From Deltaproteobacteria bacterium (GTDB lineage Bacteria > Myxococcota_A > UBA9160 > SMWR01), in NCBI GenBank assembly GCA_002729515.1, contig PBYF01000040.1:1-64000 (forward strand): DNA of 64,000 nucleotides, in the 5' to 3' direction. Position numbers and translations under genes: made by a program. Below the pieces are notes generated by a model. It saw only the letters and a program-made list of their open reading frames with translations, was not told where the DNA came from and did no database searches. Below are positions 28,598 through 35,374 of the stretch, in pieces; within the stretch, counting starts at the first letter, position 1; every line of letters starts with the position of its first letter.

Positions 28598-29326
28598 CTA
28601 TGCGTGAGGTACGTCCAGGAACCGATCGTAGCCGTCGCGCATGCCCCGGTGTGCAAGCACGCTGAATCGGAAGGCGCGCCGGATCAACGCCTGCTGCTCG
28701 CATGTCTGCCCGCACAGCTCGAGCACCGCCTGGGCGTTTGCACCGTGTTCCGGCTCCGCCTCGATATGGATGGACCAGAATTCCAGCGCGCCTGGATCGA
28801 TGTGATAATGCTTGCGGAACGCATCGTAGAGGAGCTGACCCGCCTTCGCGCTTCCGGGCACTTCCATCTCGACGGCAAGCCCGAATCCTCCGAGTCCCTC
28901 GAGGAAGGAGCTGCGACAGTAGTAGCCGACGCACGCCGCCGCCCCGATGGTGCCGGGTGTGGGAAGGAAATCCAGAATTTCCTGGCGTGAGATGCCGAGG
29001 CCCTGCTCGCAGAACTTCAGATACAGCTCGTTGTGGTCCGCCTCCTGGAGGTAGCCCATCTCGCCCGCCAGATTGCGCCCGATGAGCTTGTACACGCGGC
29101 GATCGGGCAGCGTGGGGGTCGCAGCCAGCCACGCCGCGATGCTCGGGATCACCGGCTCGATGTAGTGATAGAAGTCCTTCGCAAACAGGACTACCTGATG
29201 GCGCTCGAGCTTGCCCAGGATGAGTTCCCCCAAGAAGTTGCTCGAAGCCTCCTGTTCGCGCTTGAACTCGATGCATTCCTCGACGAACTCCTGTGAAGAG
29301 AGCACACGCTCACCTACCAGTCCCAT
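28598..29326 (-). CDS. haem-oxygenase-like di-iron protein (PF14518-type)
   Basis: This 242-residue helical protein resembles the iron-containing haem-oxygenase-like superfamily (relatives: PqqC, TenA, UndA, CADD). A metal-ligand set is visible: Glu/His in 'GEMGYLQEADHNELYLKF', and 'FWSIHIEAEPEHGANAQAV' giving His-x3-Glu-x3-His. Members bearing these residues use two irons to activate O2, for example fatty-acid decarboxylation or N-oxygenation; those lacking them are cofactor-free. The residues seen favour di-iron chemistry, but the substrate is unknown. GAGGAGAAATGATCC precedes ATG 29326. The propeller-like gene follows 126 bases later on the same strand. Confidence 0.8.
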   Translation of the reverse strand: MGLVGERVLSSQEFVEECIEFKREQEASSNFLGELILGKLERHQVVLFAKDFYHYIEPVIPSIAAWLAATPTLPDRRVYKLIGRNLAGEMGYLQEADHNELYLKFCEQGLGISRQEILDFLPTPGTIGAAACVGYYCRSSFLEGLGGFGLAVEMEVPGSAKAGQLLYDAFRKHYHIDPGALEFWSIHIEAEPEHGANAQAVLELCGQTCEQQALIRRAFRFSVLAHRGMRDGYDRFLDVPHA

Positions 29327-29407
29327 GGATCATTTCTCCTCGTCCTACTGCGATCACCGTAGTTATGGTAGATGACGAAGTCAAAGAGTTACCGGGAAAT
29401 TTGGAGC

Positions 29408-29490
29408 ATGGGAAGTTCAAGCTGCGTTTCCCCTGGGTCCGAGTCGTAGACATTCTGTCCAATAGGGACCGGGGAGGGGATCCGGCCCCA
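29408..29490 (+). repeat. dispersed repeat copy D
   Basis: Carries GGGAAGTTCAAGCTGCG, CCCTGGGTCCGAG and AATAGGGACCGGGGAGGGGA. It lies upstream of the di-iron protein gene. In plus sense the frame reads KFKLRFPWVR then NRDRGGD, the same peptide encoded by the other copies. Confidence 0.88.
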
Positions 29491-29767
29491 ATGCGGCAAC
29501 CGCTTCCGTCGGGAAAGCGGAATTCCGGCTCGATGAACACCAGCGTGACCCAGACCGGGTGTTCGACAGCCTCGACGGCCCGAGCGATGTGACAGAAGGA
29601 TTCGTGGCCGCTGGCGAATGGGTGCCGCTCACGGTCAGCCATATCTCGGCGCTCATGAATCAGATCTGCGAGAGCACGGGAGAGAATACGGCAGCCGCCA
29701 TTGAGTTCGCTGAAGCCCTCCGTCGAAGCCTTGCGCGAACAGGTGCGTCGATTCCAGATCCGGGGAT
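29491..29767. other. gap with an unrecognised minus-strand frame
   Basis: A minus-strand frame here reads GGCRILSRALADLIHERR, MADRERHPFASGHESFCHIA and VEHPVWVTLVFIEPEFRFP before entering repeat copy D. It looks protein-like but has no recognisable family, no ribosome binding site and no separate stop, so it may be a gene remnant cut by the repeat. Confidence 0.35.
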
Positions 29768-30430
29768 TCAGGACGAAGGGAGAGTCGGGACGTCTTCGTC
29801 GATCTCCCCGAAACGTTGTGCCCAGATCAAGACGATGGTCACGATCAATGCAATGACGAGCAAGCTATTGTAGATGGCTGTCTTGATTCCGAGGTATTCG
29901 ATGCCGTCCGCGTATATGAGAAGTGATGCATGGTAGGGCTCGGCAGCGAGGTTCTCCCGCAATACCGCCGTGCGAAGATCGTAGGAGCGAAACAGATTCG
30001 CCTCGAAGGAGAATCTCTGCAGCCCGCCGTCTGTGTGTTCGAGGTGCGGGTTGCTGTAGATCTTCCACTCCCGAGTGCTGGTATCTGTTTCGAGCAGCGA
30101 TCTTCCACTCCCGTCCTCTAGGACGAGTTCAAGGTCGACGCCGAGATCCTCGTGGATCCTCTTCGCACCGATTCCGCGGTAGAAGTTCCCGGTCTCCTTG
30201 AAATCGGAAGGGAGTGAGAATTCGATCGCGAGATGGTACGGGCCTGGGAAAAGCCCGCCGAGTTCGATCGCAGTCCCCTGATTCTGTCGTGTCAGGTCGA
30301 GTGCCACGGAGAAAGGCACGCTCGTCTTCATTTTCCAGAGGAGCATTCCGTTGAGGGCGATGAGGGCCACGACGGAAGCGACAGCAGCACCCAAGAGAAA
30401 ATGCCGCTTCGCGGCTGTCAGTCCATTCAA
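29768..30430 (-). CDS. membrane protein with two end helices and a periplasmic domain
   Basis: This 220-residue protein has an N-terminal helix (HFLLGAAVASVVALIALNG), about 135 polar residues, and a C-terminal helix (SLLVIALIVTIVLIWAQRFG). This is a hairpin topology with the middle domain probably in the periplasm. The start is TTG 30430, with GGAGG eight bases upstream; there is no ATG near. I recognise no family. It is divergent from the heme-copper oxidoreductase pair across a 414-base spacer and might be an accessory or assembly protein for it; that is inference from position only. Confidence 0.7.
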   Translation of the reverse strand: MNGLTAAKRHFLLGAAVASVVALIALNGMLLWKMKTSVPFSVALDLTRQNQGTAIELGGLFPGPYHLAIEFSLPSDFKETGNFYRGIGAKRIHEDLGVDLELVLEDGSGRSLLETDTSTREWKIYSNPHLEHTDGGLQRFSFEANLFRSYDLRTAVLRENLAAEPYHASLLIYADGIEYLGIKTAIYNSLLVIALIVTIVLIWAQRFGEIDEDVPTLPSS

Positions 30431-30844
30431 ACCAGTGGCCTCCAGTTGCTCGCCGTCTTTCCCACGCAGCTTTGCCCAGACTCCTCACGAAGTCTTCCAA
30501 CACCCTGGCTAGCGCTTGATGAAATCGAATTCAAAAGGGAGCAGTCGCTTCGTTCAGTTTTACTGGAGCTTCGCAGAGGTCGGGCCTGCCTATTCGAGGT
30601 GCGGTAGCTGCTCAACTACTGGTCACTCGTCTTCGAGCAGCTGTGCATGGAGGTGCTCACCTGTGCAAGAGCGATCTCATACCTGTGAATGAAATGACAC
30701 AGCGCGGGCCGGGTCTTGCCCGCACAGCCGTCTGGCACGGAGATTGCGTCAATGCTGGGTGTTTCGTGGACATCTGGATCTCTTGATCGGCTGTCTGCCA
30801 CCCTGTTGATTCGCGCCGCCGCGTGTGAGTCGTGGAGATTGATC
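30431..30844. other. divergent promoter region of the oxidoreductase pair
   Basis: This 414-base spacer lies between the divergent membrane protein (29768-30430) and the subunit II gene (30845). It is less GC-rich than its surroundings. It must hold both promoters. I searched for a clear FNR-type TTGAT-N4-ATCAA box and did not find one. Confidence 0.5.
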
Positions 30845-31426
30845 GTGACAGATTCAGCCGACATTTTTGCGCTGATGAAGGTCGTCTACCTCAGCTATAC
30901 GCTGATCGCGATTTCGTTCATCGGTTATTTCTCCTTGCGCGTGACCAGGGCTGGCCCAACCAACCCCGGTGCCAAGAAGGCCTTCTATACCTGGGTCACC
31001 TGTCTCGTTTGTCTCGGCGTGGGGATCCACGTGCTCACCTTCAATAAGGTCCCGTGGGTAAAGTGGGATCTGACCCGTGACAAGCAGCAAATCGATCAGG
31101 AATTCGAGATCGCGATGGCAGAGCACGAGTTCTTGCTCCCCTCTCCGAAGCTCGACATTGGGATCGGCAATATGGTGCGCTTCAACGTGACCTCGGCGGA
31201 CCTTACCTACGGCTTCGGGGTGTTTCGCGAAGACGGTTCCATGATGTTTCAGATGCAGGTCGTGCCCGGGCACGACAACGATCTCGTCTGGCTCTTCGAC
31301 AAACCGGGGACCTATACGATTCGCTCGACCGAGTATTCCGGGCCGAGGGGGGAAGGCCTCGTGATGGAGGACGTGGTGATCGTCTCCGGTCCCAAATACG
31401 AATCCCTGGTCGCAGTCGAATTCTAA
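30845..31426 (+). CDS. heme-copper oxidoreductase subunit II-like protein lacking CuA ligands
   Basis: This 193-residue protein has two N-terminal membrane helices (MKVVYLSYTLIAISFIGYF; TWVTCLVCLGVGIHVLTF) and a C-terminal cupredoxin domain, the layout of oxidase subunit II. The CuA signature is gone: where a CuA protein has His ... Cys-x-E-Y-Cys-G-x-x-His-x-x-Met, this one reads LTYGFGVF ... 'YTIRSTEYSGPRGEGLVM', with Ser for both Cys. It therefore cannot take electrons from cytochrome c through CuA and more likely works with quinol. GTG 30845 follows GGAGATTGATC. The subunit I gene starts 56 bases downstream. Confidence 0.82.
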   Translation: MTDSADIFALMKVVYLSYTLIAISFIGYFSLRVTRAGPTNPGAKKAFYTWVTCLVCLGVGIHVLTFNKVPWVKWDLTRDKQQIDQEFEIAMAEHEFLLPSPKLDIGIGNMVRFNVTSADLTYGFGVFREDGSMMFQMQVVPGHDNDLVWLFDKPGTYTIRSTEYSGPRGEGLVMEDVVIVSGPKYESLVAVEF

Positions 31427-31481
31427 TCCTTTTGCACCGGCGCGATGCTTGTGCTCTCCAAGCCATCGAGGAGCTGACGTC

Positions 31482-33074
31482 ATGCTGGATGCTTCGAGAC
31501 TGACTCCCCTGCAGCGTGTCGCACTCAGGTTCGCTGTGATCTCCCTGCTCTTCTATGGGCTCTGCATCATGGAGGGGATGATCATGCGCGGGCATCAGAT
31601 CGACTTCGATCTGATGGAGGCAGATCACTATTTTGCCCTGATGGGAGCCCATCCGATGGTGGGCATATTCGGCAGTAGCTTCATGCTGGTCTTCGGTGCT
31701 TTCTACTTTCTCGTGCCGACCTTGATGAAGAAGAGCCTGTACAGCCAGAAATTGGCAGAGATCAACTGGATGACCATGGCCGCCGGCGTGCTGACAGTCT
31801 GGCTGGCAGGGTTCCTCTTCCGCTATGGCGCCCTCTATACCAACTACTGGCCCCTGCCCGTAACGGAGTTCAAGCCCATTGCGCTCCTGGTCTTCGCCAC
31901 GGGCAATATCATGATCATGACCGGTGTCGTGATCTTCTGTTACAACATTTTCGCAACGGTCTTTCATCGCCGTGATACCGAGGAGCCCGTCGGTCCGCTC
32001 CTGATGTCGGCTGTCGGCATCGATGGATTTGTGAACATCTACCGACGTTGGCGGGGCAAGAAGGTGGAAGAGCCGCTGATGCCCCTGCCCCTCGTGGCGA
32101 TCTTTCGCGGAACCATCGATACCCTGCTGGATGCGGTCGTGCTCGGTGGAATCTCCATCGTCTTTCTGATTCACGCCGTCTACATCTTCACCGGGGAGCC
32201 GCTGCCGACGGACTGGTTCGACGCCCTTGTCTACAAGAATATCTACTGGTGGGGGCTGGACCTGATTGCCGACGGCCTGGTGCTGATCTACGTGGCGGGC
32301 ACCTGGTATCTACTGGCCGGGCTGATCTCCGGTCGAAAGCTCTACATGGAGAATGTCGCGCGTGCCGCATTGCTCGTGGAGTTGGTGGTGTCCTGGAATG
32401 TTTGGGCTCATCATCTGCTCGCGGATCAAGCGCAGTGGAACTGGATGAAGATTCTGTCAGGGGAGATGGTCACGGCCTTCGAGCTGGTGACGTCTGGAAT
32501 CGCCATCTTCGTGACGCTCAAGACACTGCACGACGCTCGGCCGCTGAAGATGACACCGCAGCTGAAGTTCCTCTTGGGTGGCATCCTCGGCTTCTCCCTG
32601 GGTGTGCCGGCTGGGGTCATTCAGGCAGATCTTGGCATGAACCGCATTCTGCATAACACGCAGTGGGTGATCGGAGCTCACGCCCATATGCAACTACTGG
32701 TCGGCCTGGGTATGACGCTCTACGCCGCGCTCTACGCGCTCTTCCCCATGCTCACCAACGACACCCAGCTAAAGAGCAAGTTTCTGACGAGTTTCCACTT
32801 CTGGGCCCATCTGATTGGTGGAATCGGGATGTCGGTCTGTATGGGTTTTGCGGGAATGGACGGCATGCTCCGCCGCACGATTTACGGGGCGGAGCATCCC
32901 TTCGAGTTGGAGATGATCGGCGCTGCTTTCTTTGGCAGCCTGATGGTCGTGGCGTACCTGGCCATGATGTACAACATCATCAACTCCATCGGGATCCGCG
33001 GCTTGGTTGGGATCTTCATCAATCTTCCGAGTGACCAGGGGCAGGAGGGGGACGAAGTTGTAGCAACGGCCTAG
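31482..33074 (+). CDS. NOR-like heme-copper oxidoreductase subunit I with Asp in the metal site
   Basis: This is a 530-residue, roughly 12-helix catalytic subunit. Heme ligands match the superfamily: His57 (MGAHPMVG) and the pair His400/His402 (IGAHAHMQLLVGLG, NOR-like HxHL). The two adjacent metal-site histidines are His310-His311 (WAHHLL). In the helix that normally supplies the third His (HLWVEG in NorB, GHPEVY in oxidases) the sequence is WWGLDLIADGLVLIY: Asp260 replaces His, and Asp264 replaces the NorB Glu. No oxidase cross-linking Tyr motif is seen. This points to a nitric-oxide-reductase-like enzyme with an Asp-His-His iron site. ATG 31482 follows GAGGAG. Substrate inferred, not shown. 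Confidence 0.85.
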   Translation: MLDASRLTPLQRVALRFAVISLLFYGLCIMEGMIMRGHQIDFDLMEADHYFALMGAHPMVGIFGSSFMLVFGAFYFLVPTLMKKSLYSQKLAEINWMTMAAGVLTVWLAGFLFRYGALYTNYWPLPVTEFKPIALLVFATGNIMIMTGVVIFCYNIFATVFHRRDTEEPVGPLLMSAVGIDGFVNIYRRWRGKKVEEPLMPLPLVAIFRGTIDTLLDAVVLGGISIVFLIHAVYIFTGEPLPTDWFDALVYKNIYWWGLDLIADGLVLIYVAGTWYLLAGLISGRKLYMENVARAALLVELVVSWNVWAHHLLADQAQWNWMKILSGEMVTAFELVTSGIAIFVTLKTLHDARPLKMTPQLKFLLGGILGFSLGVPAGVIQADLGMNRILHNTQWVIGAHAHMQLLVGLGMTLYAALYALFPMLTNDTQLKSKFLTSFHFWAHLIGGIGMSVCMGFAGMDGMLRRTIYGAEHPFELEMIGAAFFGSLMVVAYLAMMYNIINSIGIRGLVGIFINLPSDQGQEGDEVVATA

Positions 33075-33087
33075 GGCCTCGCTATTG

Positions 33088-33348
33088 CTACCAGCGCTTT
33101 CGCTCGTCGAGGTTCAGGGGAATGTGCTGTGCCAGCTCTTCTTCGGAAGGCGGATACAGAATCTCGACTGCGATAGCTGCGAGAAGCCCGATACCGGCCA
33201 GGCACATCATGAGAAAGAGGGTCAGTTGAAGGGGTACCAGGACGAGCCACGCGAGCACAGCGCCGAGTATCAGCGCGGTCCTGAGGCGGAACGGAAGGGT
33301 GTAGGAGCGTTCTAGACTAGCCGCATCCATCTGGTCATTCCCCAACAT
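33088..33348 (-). CDS. small two-helix membrane protein
   Basis: This 86-residue hypothetical protein (MLGNDQMDAASLERSYTLPF...) has two membrane helices (RTALILGAVLAWLVLVPLQL; TLFLMMCLAGIGLLAAIAVE) and a charged C-terminus (PPSEEELAQHIPLNLDERKRW, shown here only to mark the soluble end). An alternative start is ATG 33330. It is convergent with the heme-copper subunit I gene, 13 bases away. It may be an accessory subunit of that complex, as small membrane proteins often are, but nothing in the sequence proves it. Confidence 0.6.
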   Translation of the reverse strand: MLGNDQMDAASLERSYTLPFRLRTALILGAVLAWLVLVPLQLTLFLMMCLAGIGLLAAIAVEILYPPSEEELAQHIPLNLDERKRW

Positions 33349-33414
33349 GAAGTCTGCCTGGACTGTTGAACCAGTGCCAGCCCATAATCGATGGCCCACC
33401 GCGGGGCTTCCCGG

Positions 33415-33566
33415 GCCTCCCGTAGGGGCCTGGCAGAACGCCCATACTCGGACGTCGAGCCAGAATCCAGCTTGAATGCCCTGTCCGCGAGCCTCCCGTA
33501 GGGGCCTGGCAGAACGCCCATACTCGGACGTCGAGCCAGAATCCAGCTTGAATGCCCTGTCCGCGA
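33415..33566. repeat. two perfect tandem copies of a 76-base unit
   Basis: Units 33415-33490 and 33491-33566 are identical over all 76 bases (start GCCTCCCGTAGGGGCCTGGC, end ATGCCCTGTCCGCGA). They lie in the gap before the second subtilase. No frame through both units looks coding. Complete identity means a very recent duplication. They contain AATCCAGCTTGAATG, only loosely like the dispersed repeat. Confidence 0.92.
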
Positions 33567-33649
33567 TTGGGGTCGCCGCCGCACCACTGTCGGACTCCTA
33601 TTTACTTTGCATCCCGATATGAGATTCTTTCAGGGCCAGAACTCGGGGA

Positions 33650-35374
33650 GTGGGCCGGACGAATCGACTGCGATCATTGCGAGTAGATAGGTTCATCTGC
33701 ATCGGCCTGATTCTAATCGGCCTTTTCGCCTCAGGGTTGAGTCCACGGGCCATCGCTTCGCAATTTCTCTCCCCCGCGCCCGATTGGCGAGCGAAAGTGG
33801 ACGACTCGCTACTGGAGAGTTCGTCGAAGCCAGGGAGTATCGAGTTTCTTCTCTTCCTGCGCGAACAAGCGGATTCCTCGGATTTCAGCGATCGGAAAAA
33901 GGAAGGCCGCCAGTCGGGTCTCTCGCGTATCGAGAGAGGGGCTGCGGCCGTTGCTCGATTGCAGAAGCTGGCGACAGTCTCCCAGGCAAGTCTCGTGGAC
34001 GCGCTCACACGCGTGCGGTCTCTCGCGCCGAAGAGCGGGCTCCCGGAGTTCCGAAGCTTCTGGGTGGCGAATATGATCTGGGTCCGCGGGAGCACGACGC
34101 TGATGCGAGAGCTGGCCCACGATCCAGCAGTTGCACGGGTCATGGCCAATCCCAGGGTGCAGTTTTCCTTGCCACCGCAGCCGTCAATTGATCACTTGCC
34201 GTCAGGGATTGCAGGCATCGAATCCAACCTGTCTCTCGTCGGAGCCCCCCAGGTCTGGAGCATGGGAATTACTGGACAGGGGGCAGTGATCGGAGGACAG
34301 GATACGGGCTACGAATGGGACCATCCTGCTCTCAAGAATCAGTATCGCGGCTGGGATGGATCCACGGCGGACCATGCCTACAACTGGCATGATGCAATCC
34401 ATTCGGGCGGTGGGAGCTGCGGCGCGAACTCGATCACCCCCTGCGACGATGAAGACCACGGGACCCATACCATGGGCATCATGGTCGGTGATGACGGTGT
34501 CAGCAACCAGATCGGTATGGCGCCGGGCGCCCGCTGGATCGGCTGCAGAAACATGGATGTGGGCTTTGGGACTCCTGCGACCTACACCGAGTGCTTCCAG
34601 TGGTTCATGGCACCGACCGACGAGAACGGACTCAACCCGGATGCGAGCAAAGCTCCCCATGTCATCAACAACTCGTGGAGCTGTCCAGATTTCGAGGGAT
34701 GCGTGGACCCGCTCATCCTGGAGACTGTCGTGAACAACGTGCGCAGCTCGGGAATTTTTGTTGCGGTCAGTGCAGCAAATGACGGACCCAGCTGCAGTAG
34801 CATCGTCGATCCGCCGGCAATTTACGAAGGGAGCTTCACTGTCGGTGCTACAAACAACTCGGACGTCATCGCCAACTTCAGCAGTCGCGGCCCCGTAACG
34901 GTGGGCGGCGATCCCGCCAAGCCCGACATCAGCGCTCCAGGTGTGAGCATTCGCTCGAGTGTCCGCGGCGGCGCGTATAAGGCGCTCAGTGGAACCAGCA
35001 TGTCGGGGCCGCATGTAGCGGGTCTGGTCGCGTTGCTCATCTCGGCTTCCCCGGAACTTGCAGGCGATGTCGATTCTCTCGAGTCGATCATCGAGGCGAG
35101 CGCATTGCCACTCACCACCAGCGAGGGATGCGGGGGAGACGGCCCCGCGGACATTCCCAACCACACCTTTGGTCATGGGAGGATCGACGCCCTAGCAGCG
35201 GTGCTCTCCATCCCCGTGTCCGTACCGGGTCTCTCTTCAGCAGGTCTCGTCGTCTTGGCGGCGGGGCTCCTCTTCCCGGCGCTCCACTTCGCGCGGATTC
35301 CCGCGGTGGGCTCGCCCCGCAGCGGGGCTTCCCGTGGCAGTGGAAGCTGCGTTGTCCCTGGGTCCGGTCAGTAG
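33650..35374 (+). CDS. secreted subtilisin-like serine protease (S8) 2
   Basis: This is a 574-residue exported S8 peptidase with a signal peptide (RFICIGLILIGLFASG) and an I9-like propeptide to about 180. The triad is complete: Asp in IGGQDTGYEWDHPAL, His in DEDHGTHTMG, Ser in SGTSMSGPHVAGL, with the oxyanion Asn in HVINNSWSC. The C-terminus has SIPVSVPGLSSAGLVVLAAG, a hydrophobic helix and basic residues, the same layout as the metzincin at 18674. The final ~13 residues and the TAG stop are supplied by dispersed repeat copy E, so the native end may have been altered. GTG 33650 is the likeliest start; other in-frame TTG/GTG codons exist. Confidence 0.92.
   Translation: MGRTNRLRSLRVDRFICIGLILIGLFASGLSPRAIASQFLSPAPDWRAKVDDSLLESSSKPGSIEFLLFLREQADSSDFSDRKKEGRQSGLSRIERGAAAVARLQKLATVSQASLVDALTRVRSLAPKSGLPEFRSFWVANMIWVRGSTTLMRELAHDPAVARVMANPRVQFSLPPQPSIDHLPSGIAGIESNLSLVGAPQVWSMGITGQGAVIGGQDTGYEWDHPALKNQYRGWDGSTADHAYNWHDAIHSGGGSCGANSITPCDDEDHGTHTMGIMVGDDGVSNQIGMAPGARWIGCRNMDVGFGTPATYTECFQWFMAPTDENGLNPDASKAPHVINNSWSCPDFEGCVDPLILETVVNNVRSSGIFVAVSAANDGPSCSSIVDPPAIYEGSFTVGATNNSDVIANFSSRGPVTVGGDPAKPDISAPGVSIRSSVRGGAYKALSGTSMSGPHVAGLVALLISASPELAGDVDSLESIIEASALPLTTSEGCGGDGPADIPNHTFGHGRIDALAAVLSIPVSVPGLSSAGLVVLAAGLLFPALHFARIPAVGSPRSGASRGSGSCVVPGSGQ

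Follow-up and report, generated by a model that had tools for sequence, protein, structure and literature searches.

Introduction

The gNOR proteins are a named family of heme-copper enzymes with an aspartate in the active site, and Sulfurimonas, Sulfurovum and Persephonella are among their hosts (PMC8756737 Table A4). They were described as quinone-oxidising, non-electrogenic enzymes encoded by the genes norGH (PMC8906906) and as lacking an input proton channel (PMC8756737, PMC8906906). In Methylomirabilis, one gNor occurs besides a qNor, an sNor and two NODs (PMC6094997). A further group of interest here, the NO dismutases, is marked by a His-to-Asn and a Glu-to-Gln replacement and by the loss of the quinol site (PMC3413370, PMC10286720).

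Here we investigated a pair of genes in a stretch of 64,000 nt from a Deltaproteobacteria bacterium (contig PBYF01000040.1; from here: the window). A first-pass annotation, made from the sequence, had proposed that this pair encodes either a quinol-fed NO reductase variant or a new heme-copper chemistry. The pair was compared with its homologues, with the other heme-copper families and with solved structures, and its genomic context was analyzed.

Results

Gene pair and coordinates

The frames of subunit II and subunit I are co-directional and separated by a gap of 55 bases (Table 1). Subunit I matched the Pfam COX1 family PF00115 with E=3e-49, and none of the subunit I models in NCBIfam reached its cut-off. 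Subunit II matched the CoxB model TIGR02866 at E=1e-8, which is below the cut-off of this model, and CuA domains in the PDB at E=4.5e-5.

Table 1. Features of the gNOR gene pair in the window, with conservation among homologues
Feature	Position	Strand	Remarks
gNOR subunit II (norGH second subunit)	30845..31426	+	GTG start, 193 aa; two N-terminal TM helices and a CuA-less cupredoxin domain
gNOR subunit I, catalytic heme-copper oxidoreductase subunit	31482..33074	+	ATG start, 530 aa
Glu31 to His49 codons	31572..31628	+	span with the residues aligned to bo3 D75 and H98; E31 82/82, H49 75/82 (7 Gln)
His57 codon	31650..31652	+	low-spin heme ligand; 82/82; pairs with the heme His in every family compared
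Asp260 codon	32259..32261	+	replaces the helix VI metal His; aligned to ba3 H233; 82/82
Asp264 codon	32271..32273	+	stands where oxidases have the cross-linked Tyr and cNOR/qNOR a Glu; aligned to ba3 Y237; 82/82
His310-His311 codons	32409..32414	+	remaining metal ligands; 82/82
His400-Ala-His402 codons	32679..32687	+	active-site heme and low-spin heme ligands; both His 82/82

Active site of subunit I

Numbered from the ATG at 31482, all active-site residues listed in the first-pass annotation (His57, Asp260, Asp264, His310-311, His400 and His402) are present. Helix VI of subunit I reads GLDLIADG. In a profile of 56 homologues the top solved relative was the Thermus ba3 oxidase, and the profile alignment, which is independent of the motif, placed fwwGldliadG against the ba3 helix FWWTGHPIxYF, pairing D260 with H233 and D264 with Tyr237. 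In the ba3 numbering used here, H233 is the CuB ligand and Tyr237 the cross-linked residue. An alignment of 63 sequences agreed with this pairing. The two columns read D/D in the gNOR-type family alone; A and B oxidases have H/Y, C oxidases H/G, cNOR and qNOR H/E, sNOR H/N and eNOR-like proteins H/Q. The third metal His was thus found at the D260 position in every other heme-copper family compared. Both alignments thus bear out the earlier reading that Asp260 stands for the metal His in the helix DLIADG. The parallel reading of Asp264 as a substitute for the NorB Glu holds relative to cNOR and qNOR, whereas the oxidases have the cross-linked Tyr at this position.

The five histidines H57, H310, H311, H400 and H402, each conserved in all homologues, make up the six-His framework except for helix VI. 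Because both Asp residues are likewise invariant in 82/82 homologues over an identity range of 52-91%, the D/D site is not due to chance. Residues E300, E328 and E334 were also conserved in the alignment of subunit I. The invariant H391 was considered as a substitute metal ligand and rejected, since its aligned His is also present in ba3 and in an sNOR, which retain all three metal His; no other His was found to replace D260 in the alignment. These comparisons confirm the odd Asp metal site; being invariant throughout a widespread family, it is not new here.

The AF2 model of subunit I (pLDDT 84, pTM 0.86) placed D260 and D264 in a helix spanning residues 248-283, H310-311 at the start of a helix and H400 and H402 in a helix spanning residues 394-424. 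Foldseek matches of this model were heme-copper oxidases, with TM scores of about 0.8.

Subunit II and the lost CuA site

Both CuA Cys positions are Ser in subunit II of the window; S161 is Ser in 82/82 homologues, and S165 is Ser in 77 and Ala in 5. These two serines in a cupredoxin frame had been recognized before, but the loss goes further than was then stated: a Tyr replaces the first CuA His (Y122, 81/81), and the window protein also lacks the second His and the Met, so that it retains none of the CuA ligands. The motif STEYSGP takes the place of the CuA loop. In the AF2 model (pLDDT 87), the two TM helices are followed by a beta-sandwich, and the closest solved folds were the CuA-less subunit II of E. 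coli bo3 and the ba3 CuA domain. The loss of CuA is not accompanied by any heme c replacement in the gene pair.

Relatives and family identity

A homologue scan of 84,980 species genomes returned 80 loci with 52-91% identity over nearly the whole length. The hosts were Nitrospirota, Nitrospinota, Methylomirabilis, WOR-1, Campylobacterota (Sulfurimonas, Sulfurovum and others), Persephonella, Bacteroidota, Omnitrophota and Myxococcales MAGs. In 80/80 fetched loci, the gene immediately preceding subunit I encodes a subunit II homologue. No gNOR was detected in a search of a plasmid collection.

In a maximum-likelihood tree of the heme-copper superfamily, the 28 sampled gNOR-type members formed one clade on a long branch (SH-aLRT 95.8, UFBoot 81). 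This clade lies on the A/B/sNOR/eNOR side of the tree (side support 100/100) and outside each oxidase family, cNOR/qNOR, sNOR and eNOR, with poor support for the deeper order within its side. Neither a His in place of D260 nor a position inside the ordinary oxidases, either of which would have spoken against the first-pass annotation, was thus found. Membership in the other families was rejected on motifs and on the tree: helix VI lacks the HxxxE of cNOR/qNOR, having DxxxD instead, and the HxxxN of sNOR; there is no Gln at the Tyr position as in eNOR; and with regard to the A, B and C oxygen reductases, the HxxxY of the A and B types is absent and the branch stands outside the oxidase clades.

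The pair has the six-His framework minus helix VI, an Asp at the Tyr/Glu position and an adjacent cupredoxin subunit II. It shares the active-site Asp, the upstream CuA-less cupredoxin subunit II and the clade with gNOR (norGH) of Sulfurimonas, Sulfurovum, Persephonella and Methylomirabilis, from which it differs in sequence divergence only, with 54-64% identity in subunit I. Its nearest relatives are two MAGs of the same order (91-92%) and Nitrospirota/Nitrospinota MAGs (73-78%). Based on the shared hosts, the shared active-site Asp and the cupredoxin subunit, the pair is very likely gNOR (norGH), a two-subunit heme-copper enzyme and predicted quinol-fed NO reductase, where the grouping with sequences from named gNOR hosts was made by host and motif. 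The first-pass annotation had already mentioned gNOR families with an Asp for a His; the active-site Asp listed for gNOR in PMC8756737 corresponds to D264 here. There is no support for regarding the annotation's alternative, a new heme-copper chemistry, as new, since the family already has a published name.

Comparison with other heme-copper enzymes

Cytochrome ba3 (B-type), the best solved profile match, can be aligned with gNOR along helix VI, at the two paired His and at the His ligands of the hemes. It differs in having His233/Tyr237 in place of Asp260/Asp264 and in retaining CuA, which is lost in gNOR. The sNOR enzymes (Ruegeria pomeroyi, Thermomicrobium and relatives of the window genome) are likewise two-subunit, NOR-like heme-copper proteins and share their side of the tree with gNOR, but carry HxxxN instead of DxxxD and share only about 27% identity. 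With cNOR and qNOR the pair has in common the predicted reaction 2 NO -> N2O and an acidic residue at the Glu position; in contrast, these families possess HxxxE and a heme c subunit (cNOR) or a fused N-terminal domain (qNOR), and are found on the opposite side of the tree. E. coli bo3 quinol oxidase has a CuA-less subunit II as well, and its D75 and H98 align with E31 and H49 of gNOR (conservation in Table 1). However, R71 and Q101 of bo3 have no match in gNOR, and the O2-reducing His/Tyr site is Asp/Asp in gNOR. Among the aligned families, a His at the H98/H49 position was found in CyoB and gNOR only. D75, H98, R71 and Q101 belong to the quinol site of bo3.

Locus and neighbouring genes

Within the phylum of the window, the gNOR pair was present in 3 of 379 sampled genomes, its own genome counted, and one genome of the same genus gave no gNOR match. 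The two MAGs with the pair at 91-92% identity belong to another family of the same order. Centred on the pair and its neighbours, the stretch 29000-34500 has a GC content of about 57% compared to 65% on both sides. The rarity in the phylum, the close copies in another family of the order and the low-GC stretch suggest a horizontal acquisition.

The pair is bordered by two genes, at 29768-30430 (-) and 33088-33399 (-), whose proteins are of unknown family. Both are conserved next to it in the two same-order relatives (L006, L025), and they may therefore be part of the same transferred unit. A heme-oxygenase-like/CADD-type iron redox enzyme is encoded nearby at 28598-29326 (-). In the neighbourhoods of 27 loci (92 proteins), the genes adjoining gNOR were poorly conserved; Rrf2 regulators (3 loci), a CRP-type regulator, NarK and hemerythrin were found with scattered support. 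In many Campylobacterota loci, a protein of ~200 aa is encoded just downstream of gNOR (e.g. L041:6621-7214), for the first member of which Pfam and NCBIfam gave no match.

N-oxide genes in gNOR genomes

NosZ-type matches were found in 30 of 50 gNOR genomes tested (25 of them strong) and strong NirS-type matches in 26 of 49, both counts being confounded by the many Campylobacterota. Most of the NirS-bearing genomes also have a canonical NOR, so gNOR is not needed there to close the pathway; two NirS genomes, both MAGs (L031, L034), were without a c/qNOR match. The genomes of relatives encode eNOR-like proteins with Gln and sNOR-like proteins with Asn at the Tyr position (L015, L022, L024 and L007-L009), which indicates that the order holds several NOR types.

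The window's own genome contains NosZ and two A-type oxidases, and neither NirS nor NirK was detected in it above the cut-off. It also encodes a qNOR-like putative NO dismutase (L004, G000:C4:27559-28896, minus strand) with 61% identity over 790 aa to one copy of a tandem qNOR-like pair in a Methylomirabilis genome. All three NO dismutase signatures are present in L004, namely SHNFYW, STLQVLPL and the lack of a His/Glu quinol site. Together with NosZ and gNOR, the sequence of L004 suggests that NO dismutation may extend beyond the NC10 lineage.

Discussion

The proposed quinol-fed NO reductase variant agrees with the gNOR membership, the loss of CuA without heme c, the bo3-like fold of subunit II and the bo3-type quinol residues. 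The NosZ and NirS genes in gNOR genomes also fit this reading. Against it stand the unmatched R71 and Q101, the canonical NOR in most NirS-bearing genomes, the missing NirS and NirK of the window's own genome and the poorly conserved gene neighbourhood. As an alternative, the pair could be an O2-reducing quinol oxidase with a rearranged active site, given that the clade is placed on the A/B oxidase side of the tree rather than on that of cNOR/qNOR and that the fold of subunit II is nearest to that of a quinol oxidase. We regard this as unlikely, because there is neither a Tyr at the cross-link position nor a third metal His, and sNOR and eNOR-like proteins, in which an N or Q replaces this Tyr and which are called NO reductases in PMC8756737, share that side of the tree. 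The D/D site, unique among the compared heme-copper families, and the NOD-like gene in the window's own genome and in one Methylomirabilis genome would fit an enzyme that binds NO or N2O but catalyses a different reaction, for instance the dismutation or oxidation of NO, next to the putative NO dismutase. Most gNOR hosts in our set are, however, Campylobacterota, in which the other NOR matches are mostly ~480-aa frames of the cNOR type and not of NOD length, and the CuA loss and the conserved bo3-type residues point to external electrons from quinol. We consider it quite improbable that the Asp-His-His centre with its second Asp converts NO in a way different from plain N2O formation and in coupling with the NO dismutase of the own genome and of Methylomirabilis. 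Finally, the sparse occurrence in the phylum and a MAG contamination estimate of 7.7% for the window's genome might raise the suspicion of a decayed pair or an assembly artefact without function; with both open frames intact, every conserved residue present and close copies in two other MAGs of this order, this appears very improbable.

For gNOR as a quinol-fed NO reductase, the most likely mechanism is as follows. Since subunit II is without CuA and there is no heme c, quinol is favoured as the donor, and it would most likely be oxidised at a bo3-like site at the start of helices I-II of subunit I (E31, H49). Electrons would then travel via the low-spin heme with its ligands H57 and H402 and arrive at the binuclear centre, in which a high-spin heme on H400 would be combined with a non-heme metal that is probably iron and is ligated by D260, H310 and H311. 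D264 might act in the role of the catalytic Glu or Tyr, as an extra ligand or as a proton donor, and the predicted activity would be 2 NO -> N2O.

The gNOR family is named, widespread and a predicted source of N2O. The invariant D260 and D264 and the proposed quinol residues E31 and H49 provide handles on a heme-copper enzyme with a carboxylate instead of a metal His. As the hosts include Nitrospirota, Nitrospinota, Bacteroidota, WOR-1, Omnitrophota and Deltaproteobacteria MAGs, the N2O-producing potential that is missed by searches for cNOR and qNOR would be broader than the cited host lists.
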